Shown: piece after piece, positions 36,986-46,716 of the stretch
Numbering within the stretch: position 1 is the first letter of the stretch
Layout: every line of letters starts with the position of its first letter
DNA from: Acidimicrobiales bacterium
GTDB lineage: Bacteria; Actinomycetota; Acidimicrobiia; Acidimicrobiales; SHLQ01
DNA: 47,623 nucleotides
Assembly: GCA_004282895.1 (NCBI GenBank)
Contig: SHLQ01000005.1
Location: 1-47,623 of the forward strand
Direction: 5' to 3'
The notes under the pieces: generated by a model
What the model was told of the DNA's origin: nothing
Seen by the model: the letters and a program-made list of their open reading frames with translations, nothing else
Database searches by the model: none
Position numbers and translations under genes: made by a program

Positions 36986-37909
36986 CTACAGCCGCACGCT
37001 GCTGAGTTCCACACGGTCGGCCACACCTTCTGGGGGTGCAAGCGGATACGGAAGATCCGGCCCAGCCTCGATCGACCGCAGGTGCTCGGCGTTCGCCACC
37101 CATGCCGCGACGGGGCCGTTCAGCACCGCCAGGAGCTGCTCCGTTGGGTCGTACAACCGCTGAGCCAATATCCGGGCGTACTCGCGCGGGATCGTTTCGA
37201 TGTTGCCTGCATTCGGTCGGCCTGCGGGGAGCGTTACGTCGGTTGCGGAAACCTCGAGGAAGCCGAGAATGTCGCGGAGCAAGGCTTCGGGTCGTTCCTG
37301 TAGGTCTTCGTAGAAGCCGATGTAGAGGTTGCCTGGAGCCAAGGCCCGCTTCCACCGCGTGAGGTTGCGAAGATAACGGCTCTGCAGGTGCCTGCCCTTC
37401 AGTACGGAATCCGCGCTCCGACGCCCACTACGCATCGCCATCTGCGCCGCCGACCACTCCCGGTCGACCGGATTGCGCAGCAGATAGATCACCCGCAGAT
37501 GCGGGCACATCTCGACTGCGCGAGCGATCTGTTCATCGTTGAGCGTGGCGTAGTCCGGCGTTATCTCGCCGCTCATGATGCCCTCTGGAAAAAGCGAGCC
37601 GTACCAAGCGGGGGATGGTTCGCCGAAGAAGTACCGCCCGCACCACTCCCGGCGGGCGGTGTCGACACGCACGAGCGAGTCCGCGCGAAAGCGACGCTCC
37701 GTTGCCAGTTGGCGTCGCCATCGAACCGCGGGGGCGTCGGTCGCATGCCGCAATACGAACCAGGGACGGGTCTCCTCGATCTTTTCATCGAAGAAGTGGA
37801 GCTCCTTTACGGGTGGCAGCCACACGTCCTCCCGGAGTTCGAGCGCACGGTGAAGCCAGGTCGTTCCGGCCTTCTGGGCACCGATACAGAGAAACTGCGG
37901 ACCGGTCAT
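36986..37909 (-). CDS. Sulfotransferase (PF00685-type), last gene of glycan operon
   Basis: A 307-residue PAPS-dependent sulfotransferase. The 5'-phosphosulfate motif IGAQKAGTTWLHRAL begins at residue 8, and the 3'-phosphate motif YLLRNPVDREWSAAQMAMR lies in the middle, both well conserved. It ends an operon of six minus-strand genes and overlaps the preceding sulfotransferase gene by 4 bp (ATGA). It probably adds sulfate to sugars assembled by the operon's glycosyltransferases; the acceptor is unknown. Confidence 0.87.
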   Translation of the reverse strand: MTGPQFLCIGAQKAGTTWLHRALELREDVWLPPVKELHFFDEKIEETRPWFVLRHATDAPAVRWRRQLATERRFRADSLVRVDTARREWCGRYFFGEPSPAWYGSLFPEGIMSGEITPDYATLNDEQIARAVEMCPHLRVIYLLRNPVDREWSAAQMAMRSGRRSADSVLKGRHLQSRYLRNLTRWKRALAPGNLYIGFYEDLQERPEALLRDILGFLEVSATDVTLPAGRPNAGNIETIPREYARILAQRLYDPTEQLLAVLNGPVAAWVANAEHLRSIEAGPDLPYPLAPPEGVADRVELSSVRL

Positions 37910-38700
37910 GCGGAGGCCACCAGCTCGGCCGATGAGGAGGCCAACGCCTGCAATTGGCGCCAGATCGAGGTCGCCTCCGCGATGAGTGTCGCGTCGATCA
38001 CCCGGATCGGATCGACTCGGCTACCACCGAGTGAGGGATCCAATGCCGTCTCGTGCGCCGGGTCGAGGCCGAGGTCCCATCGATCGTTCACCGTGGACAC
38101 GATTCCACCGACGGCCGCCCGGTCGCTGAAGTCGACCGCATGGACGTGGGCCTGATCGGGGAGGGACGAGAGCAGCACCCGGTGATAGTTGATCCACATC
38201 CGTACGCCGAGGTCCGTGATCGACCAGAAATCCCGGTGGACGAGCCCTGGCCCCCGTTGCGCAGCCAGCTGTCGTGAATGACGCATGTGCAACGAGCGCA
38301 CACACTCCGACGGATTGCGAAAGACGATCAGAATCTCCGCCTCCGGCACCAGGTGCAGCCATATGGGGAGCAGTAGGCACACCCGAGGGTCCTTGAATCC
38401 CCACGGCTCGCCGGTCGATTCATGTCGAGCGTTTCTCGAGGCCACGAACTGCCGCATCGAATCCCAGATCCGACCGGGAACGTATGTGTCGAAAGGCTCA
38501 CGCGACTTCCAATCGGTGCCGCTGAGTTCGAGAATCTCCTGGTGAATCGAGATCACCTCATTGTCCTCGAAGTGACCATAGGGATTCGACGGTTCGCTCC
38601 CAAGGAGGTCGTCCCCGAGAAAGAGGCCTGCAAGGTGAAGCGAACGGGCGATCGCCGACGTGCCACTCCGGTGAAACCCGGCAACGATCAGCGGGTTCAT
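37906..38700 (-). CDS. Sulfotransferase-family protein
   Basis: A 264-residue protein of the sulfotransferase P-loop fold, distinct from its downstream neighbour. The PAPS loop is VAGFHRSGTSAIARSLHLAG at 6-25, and the second motif is ILIVFRNPSECVRSLHMRH. FKDPRVCLLLPIW contains a conserved Lys-Asp-Pro seen in bacterial glycan sulfotransferases. Its start codon shares one base with the preceding stop, and its end overlaps the next gene by 4 bp. Acceptor unknown; two different sulfotransferases in one operon suggest two sulfation positions. Confidence 0.83.
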   Translation of the reverse strand: MNPLIVAGFHRSGTSAIARSLHLAGLFLGDDLLGSEPSNPYGHFEDNEVISIHQEILELSGTDWKSREPFDTYVPGRIWDSMRQFVASRNARHESTGEPWGFKDPRVCLLLPIWLHLVPEAEILIVFRNPSECVRSLHMRHSRQLAAQRGPGLVHRDFWSITDLGVRMWINYHRVLLSSLPDQAHVHAVDFSDRAAVGGIVSTVNDRWDLGLDPAHETALDPSLGGSRVDPIRVIDATLIAEATSIWRQLQALASSSAELVASA

Positions 38701-39898: not shown

Positions 39899-40900
39899 TC
39901 AATCGGAGTGGTTCAGGGTCGCAATGAAGGCCGCGAACTCGTTCCGTTCCCGTTCGAGTGTGTGCCGTTCGGTTGCGGCGTGGCCCCCGGTTAGCAGCCG
40001 GTCCCAGAGGTCGGGCTCGTCCCGCAGTCGATGAAGCGCAGCGACGTGAGAGTCGACGTCCTCGAACTCGGCCCGCAGACAGTTCTCGTCCTCTCGGAGG
40101 TATGCCTTGTTGCCGCCGACGAACGCGCTGACCACGACATTGCTGGCGGCCATCGCCTCGAGTCCGGGAAGGTAGAAGCCCTCCTCTGGTCCGGGGGCGC
40201 AGAGAAGTACATCGGTCGAGTGGTACAGCTCGCGCAACTCGACCCACGTCGCCGGTTTGCGAATGGCGCGGAACGTGTAGTTCATATCCGCCGCCATGCG
40301 ATCGGCCACGCGATCCCCGATGGTCGACTTCCAGGTCATGTACCCAACCCGGATCGGGCCCTCAGCATCCCGGGGAGACGTCATGGAGAAGAACGGCCAG
40401 TCATGGCCCTCCACGATGGTGATGGCCGGGAATCTCTTGTTGGCCACCGGCTCGACCGCTTCCGCGACTTCGTTGGTGACAAAGATTCGCGTGACCGGGC
40501 GGTGGAGCAGCAGATAGGGAAAGCCGAGGTGCCAGGAGGGATTTGCGTGGCGGGTGTTCTGCACCAGGTGAATGACGTGGTGGCGGTCGGACCCGGGTGG
40601 GAGCGCACGCTCGATGTCAGGGTGTTGCGAAGGCTCGGAGAAGAGCACCCATGCGTCCTTCGGCAACGTCAGGTCCTTCAACAGCCCGAAGGAGATCCGA
40701 GGATCTTCCTGGGCCTTGCGGTACGCGGCGTGTTCGCGAATCGGCGCCTTGTCGCCCGGGAGTGGTGGGCCCCAGGCCACGGCGCGTTCGAAGCCGACGT
40801 CCACGGTGTGGTGAAGGTAATCGAGGATCTTGACGACGCCGCCAACGGGTCCCCAAAGGGGAAACACCACGTGAAACTCGGGAGCGATCGACGTCGTCAT
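39899..40900 (-). CDS. Glycosyltransferase (GT4-like, GT-B fold)
   Basis: A 333-residue predicted glycosyltransferase. The C-terminal donor domain contains ELYHSTDVLLCAPGPEEGFYLPGLEAMAAS, with the GPEEGFYLPGLEA stretch giving the E-x7-E nucleotide-sugar signature. The N-terminal domain starts FHVVFPLWGPVGGVVKILDYL, a typical GT-B glycine loop. ATG 40900 overlaps the stop of the upstream glycosyltransferase (ATGA). Donor and acceptor are unknown. It sits in the sulfated-glycan operon. Confidence 0.8.
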   Translation of the reverse strand: MTTSIAPEFHVVFPLWGPVGGVVKILDYLHHTVDVGFERAVAWGPPLPGDKAPIREHAAYRKAQEDPRISFGLLKDLTLPKDAWVLFSEPSQHPDIERALPPGSDRHHVIHLVQNTRHANPSWHLGFPYLLLHRPVTRIFVTNEVAEAVEPVANKRFPAITIVEGHDWPFFSMTSPRDAEGPIRVGYMTWKSTIGDRVADRMAADMNYTFRAIRKPATWVELRELYHSTDVLLCAPGPEEGFYLPGLEAMAASNVVVSAFVGGNKAYLREDENCLRAEFEDVDSHVAALHRLRDEPDLWDRLLTGGHAATERHTLERERNEFAAFIATLNHSD

Positions 40901-42063
40901 GTCGGGAGGCCCAGCTTCTTCGCCGCCTCCGCCAACGCGGAATCCGGCGCGAACCGTTCCGCCGACACACGAATGGCGCCCCGTTGCTTGCGGGCCAACA
41001 CCTCGGCGTCGGCGCACTCCGCATACGCGCGACTCCACGCATCATCGTCATCTGCTTCGACGACCCAGCCGGCGTCGTAGGCACGAATCAGGTCACTGAT
41101 CTCGCTATCGACCCCGTGAATCACCGGTACGCCGAAACGAAGTGCGACGGCCGAACGGGTGATCATCGCCATGTGACGCTCTGCGCTTTGGGCGAACACG
41201 TCAACCATCACGTCCATCGACTGGATCCACGCCGCGAAGTCGGAATACCCGAGCGGCCCGTCATGGCGATGTACTCCAGCCGGATCCGCGACGGGCTCGG
41301 CGTCGGGTGCAGACCCGCCCCAGTGCTCCGGTTGCAGCACATGCAACTCGTGCCCGGCGGCAGTCGCCGCGTGGTATGCGGCTGGCACATCGTCGAGTGC
41401 ACTCCAGCGTTGGACATACCCAGCGACGCCGACGCGAAGCGCGCCGGCGGCCGGCCTTTGGCTGCGAACCTCCGTGCCTGCCGGCAGCGGAACCGGCATC
41501 TCGACCGTGGTTACGTACTGCATCGGATCTCCGGTGACGAGGCGGGCCAGCCCGAGTTCCTCCGTGCGGATGCGATCGACAGATGGGCGTAGAAGCCACC
41601 CAAGCGCGTACCCCAACTTGCGATGCCCGTTGACCCACACGTGGTCGGCCAACGCGAGGGCGCGCTCCTTGCGACGCGCCTCACGGGCCCAATCCCGGTC
41701 GGTGCGGCCGCTCGACAGCAGCTCCAGGATCTTCGGCGCGAACATGTCGAACACGAACCTCGTGCCCGGCACGGGATGCAGGTGCGGCGCCATGTTTGCA
41801 TTGGTGAAGACGACGGTCTCGAACGAATTTGCCACGATGAACTCGTGCAGATCGGTCGGATTCACCACGGTCACGGCCGGCGGTGGGATGACGGGTTGCG
41901 CCGGATCCGTGACGATCTCGATGATGGTCTCGGGCACGGTGGTTTCCACTTCGAAGCCATGGGCCCGTAGTCCCGCCACCAAACCGGCCGCTCGGATGCC
42001 GGGGGCGGCGACCGGAACCCCAAAGCCGGGGATCACGTCGTTGGCGATGACGAGGATCGACAT
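40897..42063 (-). CDS. Glycosyltransferase-like protein, first gene of the glycan operon
   Basis: A 388-residue protein with a GT-B-like layout. The N-terminal MSILVIANDVIPGFGVPVAAPGIRAAGLVAGL is a glycine-rich start seen in GT4 enzymes. The donor half includes LRVGVAGYVQRWSAL, and SMDVMVDVFAQSAERHMAMITRSAVALRFGVPVIHG occupies the donor-binding area where related enzymes have a Glu-rich loop. ATG 42063 is the start; longer extensions run into the divergent gene. The divergent partner lies 57 bp away, so the promoter region is shared. Confidence 0.75.
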   Translation of the reverse strand: MSILVIANDVIPGFGVPVAAPGIRAAGLVAGLRAHGFEVETTVPETIIEIVTDPAQPVIPPPAVTVVNPTDLHEFIVANSFETVVFTNANMAPHLHPVPGTRFVFDMFAPKILELLSSGRTDRDWAREARRKERALALADHVWVNGHRKLGYALGWLLRPSVDRIRTEELGLARLVTGDPMQYVTTVEMPVPLPAGTEVRSQRPAAGALRVGVAGYVQRWSALDDVPAAYHAATAAGHELHVLQPEHWGGSAPDAEPVADPAGVHRHDGPLGYSDFAAWIQSMDVMVDVFAQSAERHMAMITRSAVALRFGVPVIHGVDSEISDLIRAYDAGWVVEADDDDAWSRAYAECADAEVLARKQRGAIRVSAERFAPDSALAEAAKKLGLPT

Positions 42064-42120: not shown

Positions 42121-44100
42121 GTGTCGACCACACCCCCGAACGTGCTGCTGATCATCGCCGACACCGTGCGCGCCGATCATCTCGACCTGTTCGGCTACAA
42201 CCGCATCACCACCCACCATCTGACGCGCCGGTTGCAGGCGCGTCCGGGGTGGACGCTGTTCGACCGCTGCTACTCGACCGCAGGGTGGACCCTTCCCGCG
42301 TGTGCGTCGATTATCACGGGACAGAACCCGGATCGACATGGGCTCATCGACCACAGTCGGAAGTTCACCACCGAGAAAATTGCGGGAGCGCTGCGGGCCA
42401 CACATCGAACCGTCGGGATCGGGAACAACGGCAACCTGGTGTCCGACGCAATCAGTGTCGAAACGCTGGAGGGTCTCGGGCTCAAGCGCCGTCCCAAAAA
42501 GTGGAATCACTTCGGCTGGAACGAAGGCTTCGACCGGTACGAGTGGTACCCCCACGACCAGCATTGGAAGGCACTCAACAAGGCTCGCCGGTTGCTGAAC
42601 CGGTGGCAGTCAGACCCCACACCGTGGTTCATGATGCTGCACACGAACCTGGCCCATGACTACAACCTCGACCGGCCCTACTACCGAGCGACCGAGCACT
42701 TCCTCGATGGGCCGCTCGACGAACGACTTCACGATTTCCGGGATGGGCCGGAGGTCTGGAACGAGCTGGCCGACGACGTGCCCAACCTCACCGAGCAGAT
42801 CATCGCAAAATATGACAGCGGTTTGCGACGGCTCGACCGGTCACTCGACCAGGTGCTCGACGTTGTTGACCTCGACAACACGATCGTGGCCATCGTCTCC
42901 GACCACGGTGAGGGTTTCGATCCCGAGCTCGGTCGCGTACATCATTGCGGTCGCATGCACGAAGACCTGTTGCATGTCCCGCTGATCTTCTTCACACCGC
43001 CGTCGGTGTACGGCAGCTCGCCGCCACCACCACGGCAGCGATTCGTCCGCAGCGTCACGGACATCGTGCCGACGATCCTGCGTATGACCAACGCTGCCAC
43101 GGGTGCGAAACATGACGGAGCCGATCTGTTCGGGCCGGAGCGTCATCGGTCGATCTTCGCCATGGACTCCGCCTATGTCTACCGTCCCGATGAACGCCCG
43201 ATTCGGCGCCTCTCATCGGATCAGGGTCCGCTGAGCGTGCAGAGCGTCATCAACTACCCGCTGAAGTCCACGAGCTACAGCTGGGAACCCGATGTGGCTG
43301 TTTCCGGACAGCACCACCTGGTCTACGACCCACTGGAGGTTCGGGAGCCGTTCGAGGCCGACACACCGCTGGCCGCGGTCACCGTTGTTGTCGACTTCGA
43401 CGAGTATGCCCACAATCTTGGAGCCAGCCCCGATGTCCGAAGCGGCGCGCTCGAACTCGAGGTGATCAACAACACGGACAATGCGGCCGGCGATGGGATC
43501 GGCCCTCTGTATGCGAACGCAACGACCTCGCAACAATCAGGGCCGATCGTGTACCTGCACCCCGACGTGTACCTCCCCGAAGGGTGGGTGACCCGAACCC
43601 AACACGCCCTCGCCCAGCTCGATGAGCTCGATCCGTTCTGGGCGGTTGCCGGTATCGCCGGGCGCGCCCGCGGTTCGATCGATCGAGGGGAGACCGGCAT
43701 CGGGCACTGGTCCGACCCGCACGGGTACCGAGCGTTCGGGATTCTGCCCCATCAGGTTGACGTCGTCGATGAGCTGATCATCATCGTGCGCGACCGCTCG
43801 GTCGACTTCGATGCCTCCATGCCGGGTTTCCACTGTTATGGCACCGACATCTGCGCCACGGCCCAGGCGGCCGGCCGCACGGTCTGGGTCATCGATTCGT
43901 TTGCATGGCACAAGATGCGCAAGTCCAACCGCGAACTCGTGACCCACGCCGATCGAAGCGGCAAGATCACCAACCGGGCCGAGGAGGGTTTCTCCGACGA
44001 GTTCACGCTGAGCGCCACCTATGTCAAGGACAAGTGGGATGGTGTGCAGCCGCTGCAGGGAATGACGGAATACTGGCGCGACTTCTACGGCGTCGGCTGA
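42121..44100 (+). CDS. Alkaline-phosphatase-superfamily (sulfatase-like) domain fused to a GT2-like glycosyltransferase
   Basis: A 659-residue fusion. Residues about 1-350 form a sulfatase-fold domain with metal ligands in LLIIADTVRADH (Asp14) and VSDHGEGF (Asp261, His262). At the nucleophile site the sequence is GWTLPACASIITGQ: Thr57 stands where sulfatases have the formylglycine Cys of CxPxR, as in lipoteichoic-acid synthases and phosphoethanolamine transferases. Residues about 415-645 look like a StrF-type glycosyltransferase (PF13712), with VYLHPDVYLPEGW and GFHCYGTDICATAQAAGRTVWV. No membrane helix is present. It probably modifies a surface glycan; reaction unknown. It begins at GTG. Confidence 0.8.
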   Translation: MSTTPPNVLLIIADTVRADHLDLFGYNRITTHHLTRRLQARPGWTLFDRCYSTAGWTLPACASIITGQNPDRHGLIDHSRKFTTEKIAGALRATHRTVGIGNNGNLVSDAISVETLEGLGLKRRPKKWNHFGWNEGFDRYEWYPHDQHWKALNKARRLLNRWQSDPTPWFMMLHTNLAHDYNLDRPYYRATEHFLDGPLDERLHDFRDGPEVWNELADDVPNLTEQIIAKYDSGLRRLDRSLDQVLDVVDLDNTIVAIVSDHGEGFDPELGRVHHCGRMHEDLLHVPLIFFTPPSVYGSSPPPPRQRFVRSVTDIVPTILRMTNAATGAKHDGADLFGPERHRSIFAMDSAYVYRPDERPIRRLSSDQGPLSVQSVINYPLKSTSYSWEPDVAVSGQHHLVYDPLEVREPFEADTPLAAVTVVVDFDEYAHNLGASPDVRSGALELEVINNTDNAAGDGIGPLYANATTSQQSGPIVYLHPDVYLPEGWVTRTQHALAQLDELDPFWAVAGIAGRARGSIDRGETGIGHWSDPHGYRAFGILPHQVDVVDELIIIVRDRSVDFDASMPGFHCYGTDICATAQAAGRTVWVIDSFAWHKMRKSNRELVTHADRSGKITNRAEEGFSDEFTLSATYVKDKWDGVQPLQGMTEYWRDFYGVG

Positions 44101-44755: not shown

Positions 44756-45373
44756 TCAGGACTGACGCGACTCGATCGCATCAAGAATGCGGTCGTAGGT
44801 TTCGACGGGCTGCGCGCCCGGGACGGCGAATGCATCGGCGAACACGACCGTTGGTGCCGCAGTAACACTGTTCTCCATCGCCATGTTGTGATCTTCGATG
44901 ACCTTCTGCGTCATCTCGTCAGCATGAGCACGCGCATATTCCTCGAACTCCTCCCGATCGATCCCCACTTCGACCGCCAGATTGACGAGCTCGTCGCTAT
45001 CGGCGATGTTGCGATTCTCGGAGAAATAGGCCTCGAGCAGACGGTGGTGAAAGGCCATCGCCAGATCGGGCCAACCAGCCTCAACGGTCTTGAATGCGAC
45101 CTGCGCGGGGACACTCGAGGACGGTTGATCGGCCTTGGACGCCCACACCTGGAACCTCGCACGCGGTTCGGATTCGGCCGGGCGAAGCCAGCTTTGGGTG
45201 TACTCGATGAACTTGTCGCGATCACCGGTCTTGGGCTCCACCCGGAGCAGGAACGACCGCCAGTCGATCTCGATGCGGTCTCCCGCTGATTCCGCGAAAT
45301 CGTCGAGGCGCACGGCCGCGACGTAACACCATGGTCAAAGAAAGTCGGACCACACGCTGATCGAGGTTGCCAT
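44756..45373 (-). CDS. DsbA-family thiol oxidoreductase, predicted selenoprotein (Sec-Pro-Trp-Cys)
   Basis: Read through one in-frame UGA (45335-45337), this gene encodes 205 residues of the DsbA/FrnE-like thioredoxin fold. The N terminus reads VWSDFL-Sec-PWCYVAAVRLDDF, with UGA at codon 13 exactly at the first position of the CPWC active site, while the second Cys (residue 16) and the cis-Pro loop VTAAPTVVF are intact. A candidate SECIS hairpin follows. Without readthrough, translation could start only at Val or later Met-like codons (for example 45313) and would lose the active site. It starts at the ATG 38 bp after the YceH-fusion stop, with no clear ribosome binding site. Related proteins are disulfide oxidoreductases or 2-hydroxychromene-2-carboxylate isomerase-like. 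Confidence 0.82.
45301..45323 (-). promoter_or_regulatory. Candidate bacterial SECIS hairpin
   Basis: The mRNA directly after the UGA can form stem CGTCG (45323-45319) with CGACG (45305-45301), plus CG with CG, a 3-nt bulge and the 6-nt loop GCCGUG. Eighteen nucleotides separate the UGA from the loop, and the loop begins with G, both within the usual range for bacterial SECIS elements bound by SelB. Confidence 0.55.
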
Positions 45374-45411: not shown

Positions 45412-46716
45412 TCAGCGGGCGGCGTAGGTCGACGTTCCCGAAGACAACAGCTCGTCGGCCGCGGCGCGGAGTGTGGCTGCGGTGGCGTTGAACATGGCGC
45501 CGCCGATGGACACCCGGCGAACCCCAACCGCTCGCATCGACTCCACCGACGGTCCGTTGGGTCGCGCCAGGACGTTGATGGGTTGGTCCACCGAATCGAC
45601 GACCAGTTCGATCAGATCGATATCCGCCAGGCCAGGTGCATAGAGAACCTCGGCCCCGGCGGCGCCGTAGGCGGCCAGCCGTTCCACCGTGTCGTCGAGA
45701 TCGTCGACGCCGTACAGCAGGTTCTCTGCGCGTGCGGTGAGCACGATGTCATGGGCCGCGCCGGCTTCGACGGCCTCGGCTACCGCTTCTGTTGCTGCGC
45801 CGATCGGGTCAATGGACGACGTCTGCGGGTTGTAGTCCTCAATCGACAGCCCCGATGCGCCGGCCGCTGCGAGCAGACGAACCGTCTCGGTGATCCCGCC
45901 GGGTTCGTCCGGGAAGAGCCGTTCACTGTCCACGTTGAGCGGAACGGTGATGAACGATGTGAGATCGGCGACATGGGCGACCAGTTCGTCGCGGGTGACC
46001 TCCTGATCGTCTTTGCCGATCGCTCGTCCGAACCCGGAGCTGGTGGTCGCCAGGGCAGGGAAACCCTTCTCCTGAAGGAGCCGGGCTGAGCCGCGATCCC
46101 AGGGATTGGGCATGATGAAGAGGTCGGCGGCGTGGAGCTGGCGGAAAACGTCGGTGCGCTGTCGCCCGCCGTGCAAGGGCGCATGGGACGTGGGCGGCGA
46201 GGCAGGCTCGAGCGTGTGGCCGGTCTCGCCCAGCAGTTGCACCCAACGGTCCTGACTTTGGCCGGGACTGCGCCCCACGTTCATGGCCAGGGACGGCTCG
46301 CGTTGCGCCAGTCGCGTCAACGTCTCGTCGACCTCCTCCACCGACTCGAAGGGGTGCAGACGCTCGGTTCGAGTGCGGAGCTCACCGCTCGTCTGGGCGC
46401 CACGAAGGGAAAGTACGGCTACAACGGCCAGTTCGTCGTCACCGAGTGGGATCGCCTCCGGCACGACATGACGATGTTTCCACGCTCGTGAGCCGGTGGG
46501 ACGGAGGCTCCGGGCCAGGCCGCGGTCCCGAAGCGACAGCATCGCCGCATCGATGTCGGACTCCGAGAGTGAGGTTACCGGGTCGCGGCTGGTCTTCTGG
46601 TTGCAGGCGCTGACGAGACTGTTGGTGGTGAGCGGATAGTTGTCCGGTGTCGCCCGTTCCTTCTCGATCAGCGACGCCAGGACTCGCAGTTCCGATTCGG
46701 TGAGATCCAGATCCAT
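45412..46716 (-). CDS. YceH (DUF480) fused to isocitrate lyase/PEP mutase-family domain
   Basis: A 434-residue fusion. Residues 1 to about 170 match DUF480/YceH, a tandem winged-helix protein: LTESELRVLASLIEKERATPDNYPLTTNSLVSACNQKTSRDPV is its hallmark. Residues about 185-434 are a PEP mutase/isocitrate lyase-type barrel (DLFIMPNPWDRGSARLLQEKGFPALATTSS, VPLNVDSERLF, LSIEDYNPQT, VLTARAENLL). Its Asp and Glu metal-site residues are kept, but the lyase KKCGH loop is absent. The domain join is in one frame with no stop. It is probably in one transcript with the downstream selenoprotein. Function of the fusion is unknown. Confidence 0.82.
   Translation of the reverse strand: MDLDLTESELRVLASLIEKERATPDNYPLTTNSLVSACNQKTSRDPVTSLSESDIDAAMLSLRDRGLARSLRPTGSRAWKHRHVVPEAIPLGDDELAVVAVLSLRGAQTSGELRTRTERLHPFESVEEVDETLTRLAQREPSLAMNVGRSPGQSQDRWVQLLGETGHTLEPASPPTSHAPLHGGRQRTDVFRQLHAADLFIMPNPWDRGSARLLQEKGFPALATTSSGFGRAIGKDDQEVTRDELVAHVADLTSFITVPLNVDSERLFPDEPGGITETVRLLAAAGASGLSIEDYNPQTSSIDPIGAATEAVAEAVEAGAAHDIVLTARAENLLYGVDDLDDTVERLAAYGAAGAEVLYAPGLADIDLIELVVDSVDQPINVLARPNGPSVESMRAVGVRRVSIGGAMFNATAATLRAAADELLSSGTSTYAAR

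Follow-up and report, generated by a model that had tools for sequence, protein, structure and literature searches.

A FrnE/DsbA-type selenoprotein with a predicted UPWC active site, encoded through an in-frame UGA and shared across an actinobacterial class

Introduction

The DsbA superfamily includes some redox-inactive members. Among the families relevant here is COG2761, which we take to be FrnE. FrnE proteins are thiol oxidoreductases, predicted to be cytoplasmic, that act as disulfide isomerases and reduce insulin, and in many of them, although not in all, a C-terminal CXXXXC serves in regeneration (PMC8945050). Selenoproteins have also been described under this heading, beginning with the DsbA-like UxxC selenoproteins, accompanied by a bSECIS, that were reported under COG2761 from the Sargasso Sea in 2005 (PMC1088965). 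The GOS marine samples of 2008 gave 63 'DsbA 1' sequences (PMC2398784), 45 DsbA-like selenoproteins have been counted in 41 organisms (PMC5029168), and a 2026 review lists the 'DsbA-like protein form 1, PF01323, UxxC' (PMC13188914).

Here, we describe a locus that an earlier note, working from the letters alone, had read as a DsbA-family selenoprotein. This reading is correct, but the kind of protein is not new, as the UxxC selenoproteins of COG2761/PF01323 have been in the literature from 2005 onwards. Going by the descriptions of form 1 (e.g., NIP15863.1), the protein shares with it the Pfam domain, the position of the selenocysteine (Sec), the UxxC motif and the in-frame kind of bSECIS. It differs in that the evidence for this branch comes from genomes spread over an actinobacterial class, together with Cys counterparts, and the main added value lies in this conservation across the class.

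Materials and methods

The window, i.e., the whole stretch of DNA analysed (47,623 nt), belongs to an incomplete assembly of 316 contigs. Homologues came from a class sample (296 genomes), a family sample (19 genomes) and a phylum-wide sample. The detailed alignment holds 24 of the 25 TGA forms plus five TGC forms; L065 was omitted from the protein alignment because of stops in the chosen frame. A search for related loci returned six, two of them identical to genes L022 and L023. Published bSECIS criteria were applied by hand, namely a loop of 3-9 nt, a stem of 4-16 bp, a spacing of 16-37 nt between UGA and loop, a G within the first two loop positions and an MFE <= -7.5 (PMC13188914). Shuffled controls were synonymous recodings drawn with the codon usage of the family.

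Results and discussion

The reading frame and its recoded codon

On the minus strand the codons from ATG 45373 read MATSISVWSDFL, then TGA (45337-45335), then PWCYVAAVRLDDF (Table 1). This TGA is the single internal one in the frame and replaces the first Cys of CPWC, with 192 open codons between it and the stop at 44758-44756, which bears out the earlier reading of the codons. Residues 5-196 of the read-through protein match PF01323 (DSBA) at 9e-25, above the gathering cut-off (88 bits vs 25.6). The sole match among the NCBIfam models was NF041057, at 34.8 against a cut-off of 190, and none of these models covers the selenoprotein. Apart from Sec13 and Cys16 the protein has no Cys. When the in-frame TGAs of the window were scanned for UxxC-like/UP contexts, only 45337 read, by eye, as a credible active site.

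Table 1. Positions of the selenoprotein gene, its predicted functional elements and its upstream neighbour in the window
Feature	Position	Strand	Remarks
FrnE/DsbA-type selenoprotein gene (predicted)	44756..45373	-	205 aa, Sec13 (UPWC)
Sec codon TGA within the frame, at the first residue of the CPWC redox motif	45335..45337	-	
Predicted bSECIS hairpin GUCG-C-GGC[CGUGC]GCC-U-CGAC	45302..45322	-	begins 12 nt 3' of UGA
Cys16, putative resolving cysteine of UPWC	45326..45328	-	present in 29/29 aligned homologues
Pro174 of the presumed cis-Pro loop (TAAPTVV)	44852..44854	-	invariant in alignment A2
Stop codon TGA of the selenoprotein gene	44756-44758	-	
DUF480 + PEP_mutase two-domain protein, upstream neighbour	45412..46716	-	

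The same note had expected standard gene calling to truncate the gene, and the ORF listed under table 11 in this frame is indeed a protein of 185 aa that starts at GTG 45313 and lacks the active site. Taken at face value, this listing would make the GTG the true start of a shortened protein, comparable with the redox-inactive members known from the superfamily. We give this reading practically no credence, as every Sec orthologue keeps both the UPWC motif and the SDFL/SDYL codons directly before the UGA, the Cys homologues read uninterrupted across the codon, and the first thioredoxin-fold strand of the predicted structure (residues 3-9) lies upstream of the UGA. Gene callers that take every TGA for a stop cut the protein short, so a redox enzyme conserved in this environmental actinobacterial group is likely to be missing from annotations or wrongly given there.

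Conservation of the UGA codon among relatives

Close homologues with exactly one in-frame TGA were found in 10 of the 296 genomes of the class sample, and close homologues without an in-frame TGA in three; in the family sample, homologues with a single TGA occur in 15 of 19 genomes (own genome included in the TGA counts of both samples). The phylum-wide sample contributed a 25th TGA form from outside this set. In each of these 25 genomes, again including our own, the matched frame contains one stop only, a TGA that falls at UPWC (25/25). Across the 29 aligned homologues U occurs solely in the first column of xPWC, where 24 have U (TGA) and five have C (TGC; three from the same class and two from Myxococcota). 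Nothing other than TGA or TGC thus stands at the codon, and the frame is intact afterwards, as would be expected of Sec/Cys homologues; disrupted frames in close homologues, named beforehand as evidence against a selenoprotein, were not seen among the aligned orthologues, none of which is interrupted by a second stop. With TGA at one alignment column in 24 genomes, plus the 25th elsewhere in the phylum, a chance TGA is excluded.

These counts also bear on two simpler accounts of the codon. In an incomplete assembly, and with one base separating TGA from TGC, a sequencing or assembly error might have turned the TGC or TGT of an ordinary FrnE into a stop. The probability of this is vanishingly small, however, since the TGA recurs in independently assembled relatives from several families and is accompanied by a SECIS-like hairpin that the TGC forms are missing (see below). 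Alternatively, as TGA is the normal stop in the code, the gene could be a pseudogene with a nonsense mutation. This we regard as negligible, given that pairwise comparison of the part after the UGA gives a dN/dS of about 0.05-0.28, that the 24 orthologues have no other frame breaks, and that the TGA has been kept over deep divergence. To judge from these ratios, the region 3' of the UGA is under purifying selection, as a translated selenoprotein would be.

A search for SelB found it in each of the 24 genomes whose TGA form was aligned, compared with 201 of the 296 genomes of the class sample. The three class genomes with a Cys form carry it as well (3/3), so loss of the machinery does not account for the Cys form, and Sec is not strictly required. 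In two places of the tree a Sec form and a Cys form are sisters (L019/L023 and L021/L022), which we read as repeated Sec/Cys exchange; lying in Sec-competent genomes, these pairs would provide a natural system for the benefit of Sec over Cys. No copy of the selenoprotein was detected in the incomplete assemblies of three family genomes (G297, G301 and G306), in which SelB is present. Class members bearing SelB include genomes of about 1 Mb (f30/g66), and by this gene content strongly streamlined members of the class also keep the use of Sec.

A predicted SECIS hairpin downstream of the UGA

The hairpin downstream of the UGA has a 5-nt loop (CGUGC), a 7-bp stem and a 1x1 internal loop, with 20 nt between the UGA and the apical loop, a G at the second loop position followed by U, and a folding energy of -12.6 kcal/mol for the region. 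Judged by hand, it falls within the published bSECIS limits in every respect (PMC13188914), in agreement with the SECIS element that the earlier interpretation called for. The 24 Sec forms average 6.50 of 7 pairs against 4.50 +/- 0.19 in synonymous shuffles, with 0 of 300 shuffles reaching this value in a test that counts related sequences as independent, whereas the five Cys forms have no excess (3.40 pairs vs 3.56 +/- 0.39 shuffled). For our own sequence alone the excess over synonymous shuffles is modest (p 0.034). Two stem positions vary yet remain paired (GC/CG at one, GC/AT/GT at the next), and the GU of the loop coincides with a conserved Val codon. The hairpin is retained in the Sec forms and absent from the Cys forms.

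Selenocysteine machinery

If selB or selC had been lacking, the UGA could hardly have been defended as a Sec codon, but both are present, and the search of the genome recovered all four genes (4/4). The tRNA-Sec, with anticodon tca, scores 66.7 against an Rfam gathering cut-off of 47; SelB reaches 300.9 bits and SelA 380.5 bits (NCBIfam cut-offs 242.25 and 267.9, respectively), their genes being neighbours, and SelD 368.8 bits (cut-off 125). On this gene content, the genome can make selenocysteine.

The selD active site holds an in-frame TGA of its own, at GAGUGCK (L040, G000:C152, about 1528-1545), and SelD itself is therefore a predicted selenoprotein. A formate dehydrogenase fragment has an in-frame TGA at SCNRTUHAPS (G000:C232, L066), a position that we take to be the known Sec site of FdhA, with a strong hairpin downstream (-22.3 kcal/mol). 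A second formate dehydrogenase alpha fragment with an in-frame TGA was found on C298 (L072), and the formate dehydrogenase gene appears to be divided among contigs.

Decoding of the UGA as Trp or Cys, by a change of the code or by leaky suppression, would likewise leave the frame open, since it is open whichever residue is inserted. This is highly improbable: the gene itself and many of its orthologues terminate with TGA, the Sec machinery and the bSECIS hairpin are both in place, the residue is exchanged solely with Cys, and further in-frame TGAs stand at the known Sec sites of SelD and FdhA. On the evidence set out for each, an error, a pseudogene, an alternative start and a code change were all rejected. 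The original claim of selenocysteine at the catalytic Cys is supported by the machinery, the TGA/TGC exchange, the purifying selection and the hairpin.

Fold, subfamily and proposed mechanism

With U13 modelled as Cys, the structure is predicted with confidence (pLDDT 94.3, pTM 0.91). There is no evident signal peptide, the first strand starting already at residue 3. The best PDB match in a Foldseek search was D. radiodurans FrnE (E 1.3e-12), in agreement with phmmer against the same protein (7.6e-16), and cytosolic DsbM was matched at E 2.3e-10; the putative protein disulfide isomerase 2in3 and Streptomyces SCO1869 are further among the best solved relatives. D. radiodurans FrnE (DR_0659; PDB 5co3, 5cnw, 5xwh) has the same fold, its CPWC aligns to UPWC, and both proteins are predicted to be cytoplasmic. 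However, it has Cys in place of Sec and a regenerating C-terminal CXXXXC, a motif that was sought in the selenoprotein sequence and is missing. Pseudomonas aeruginosa DsbM (PDB 5hfi/5hfg), a cytosolic disulfide reductase solved with GSH, resembles the selenoprotein in fold and size (about 205 aa) but has no Sec, and the two are about 20% identical in a structural alignment. In the tree the 29 Sec/Cys orthologues are set apart from 16 FrnE-like Cys proteins with support of 100/100; given this split from the canonical proteins, we place the branch as an FrnE-like sister subfamily and not as FrnE proper.

Taken together, the locus almost certainly encodes a genuine selenoprotein of the DsbA superfamily, a cytoplasmic thiol-disulfide oxidoreductase akin to FrnE and DsbM whose nucleophilic Sec is inserted at a UGA read by SelB. 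The recoding signal, the machinery, the conservation and the predicted fold are established by computation. Catalysis, its reductase or isomerase direction and the reducing partner are inferred from the family, the cytoplasmic location from the lack of an evident signal peptide; the substrate is an inference too. In the mechanism that we propose, SelA, with selenophosphate from SelD, would form Sec-tRNA(Sec), and SelB, bound to the hairpin downstream of the UGA, would deliver Sec at codon 13, after which translation would run on to the stop at 44756. Sec13 would most likely act as nucleophile on the disulfide of a substrate, or it would form a selenenylsulfide with Cys16; Cys16 would resolve the Sec13 intermediate, and turnover would proceed through thioredoxin or a low-molecular thiol.

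A bolder reading, which we consider rather unlikely, is that the UPWC branch, with its Sec and Cys members and repeated exchanges inside a single family of genomes, is a functionally distinct subfamily of cytoplasmic reductases in which Sec makes the regenerating C-terminal Cys pair, as found in D. radiodurans FrnE, unnecessary. If this were true, Sec would do more in the branch than substitute for one Cys.

Neighbouring genes

The gene upstream of the selenoprotein gene, on the same strand and separated from it by 38 nt, is a single ORF of 434 aa with DUF480 (residues 5-153) and PEP_mutase (191-423) domains, and the two genes are possibly co-transcribed. A homologue with both domains lies immediately upstream of the selenoprotein in eight of nine genus relatives, which suggests a conserved gene pair. 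Elsewhere in the window, two sulfotransferase-family genes (PF13469) lie side by side at 36989-38700 on the minus strand, near a sulfatase (42124-44097, plus strand) and a glycosyltransferase (39902-41038, minus strand).
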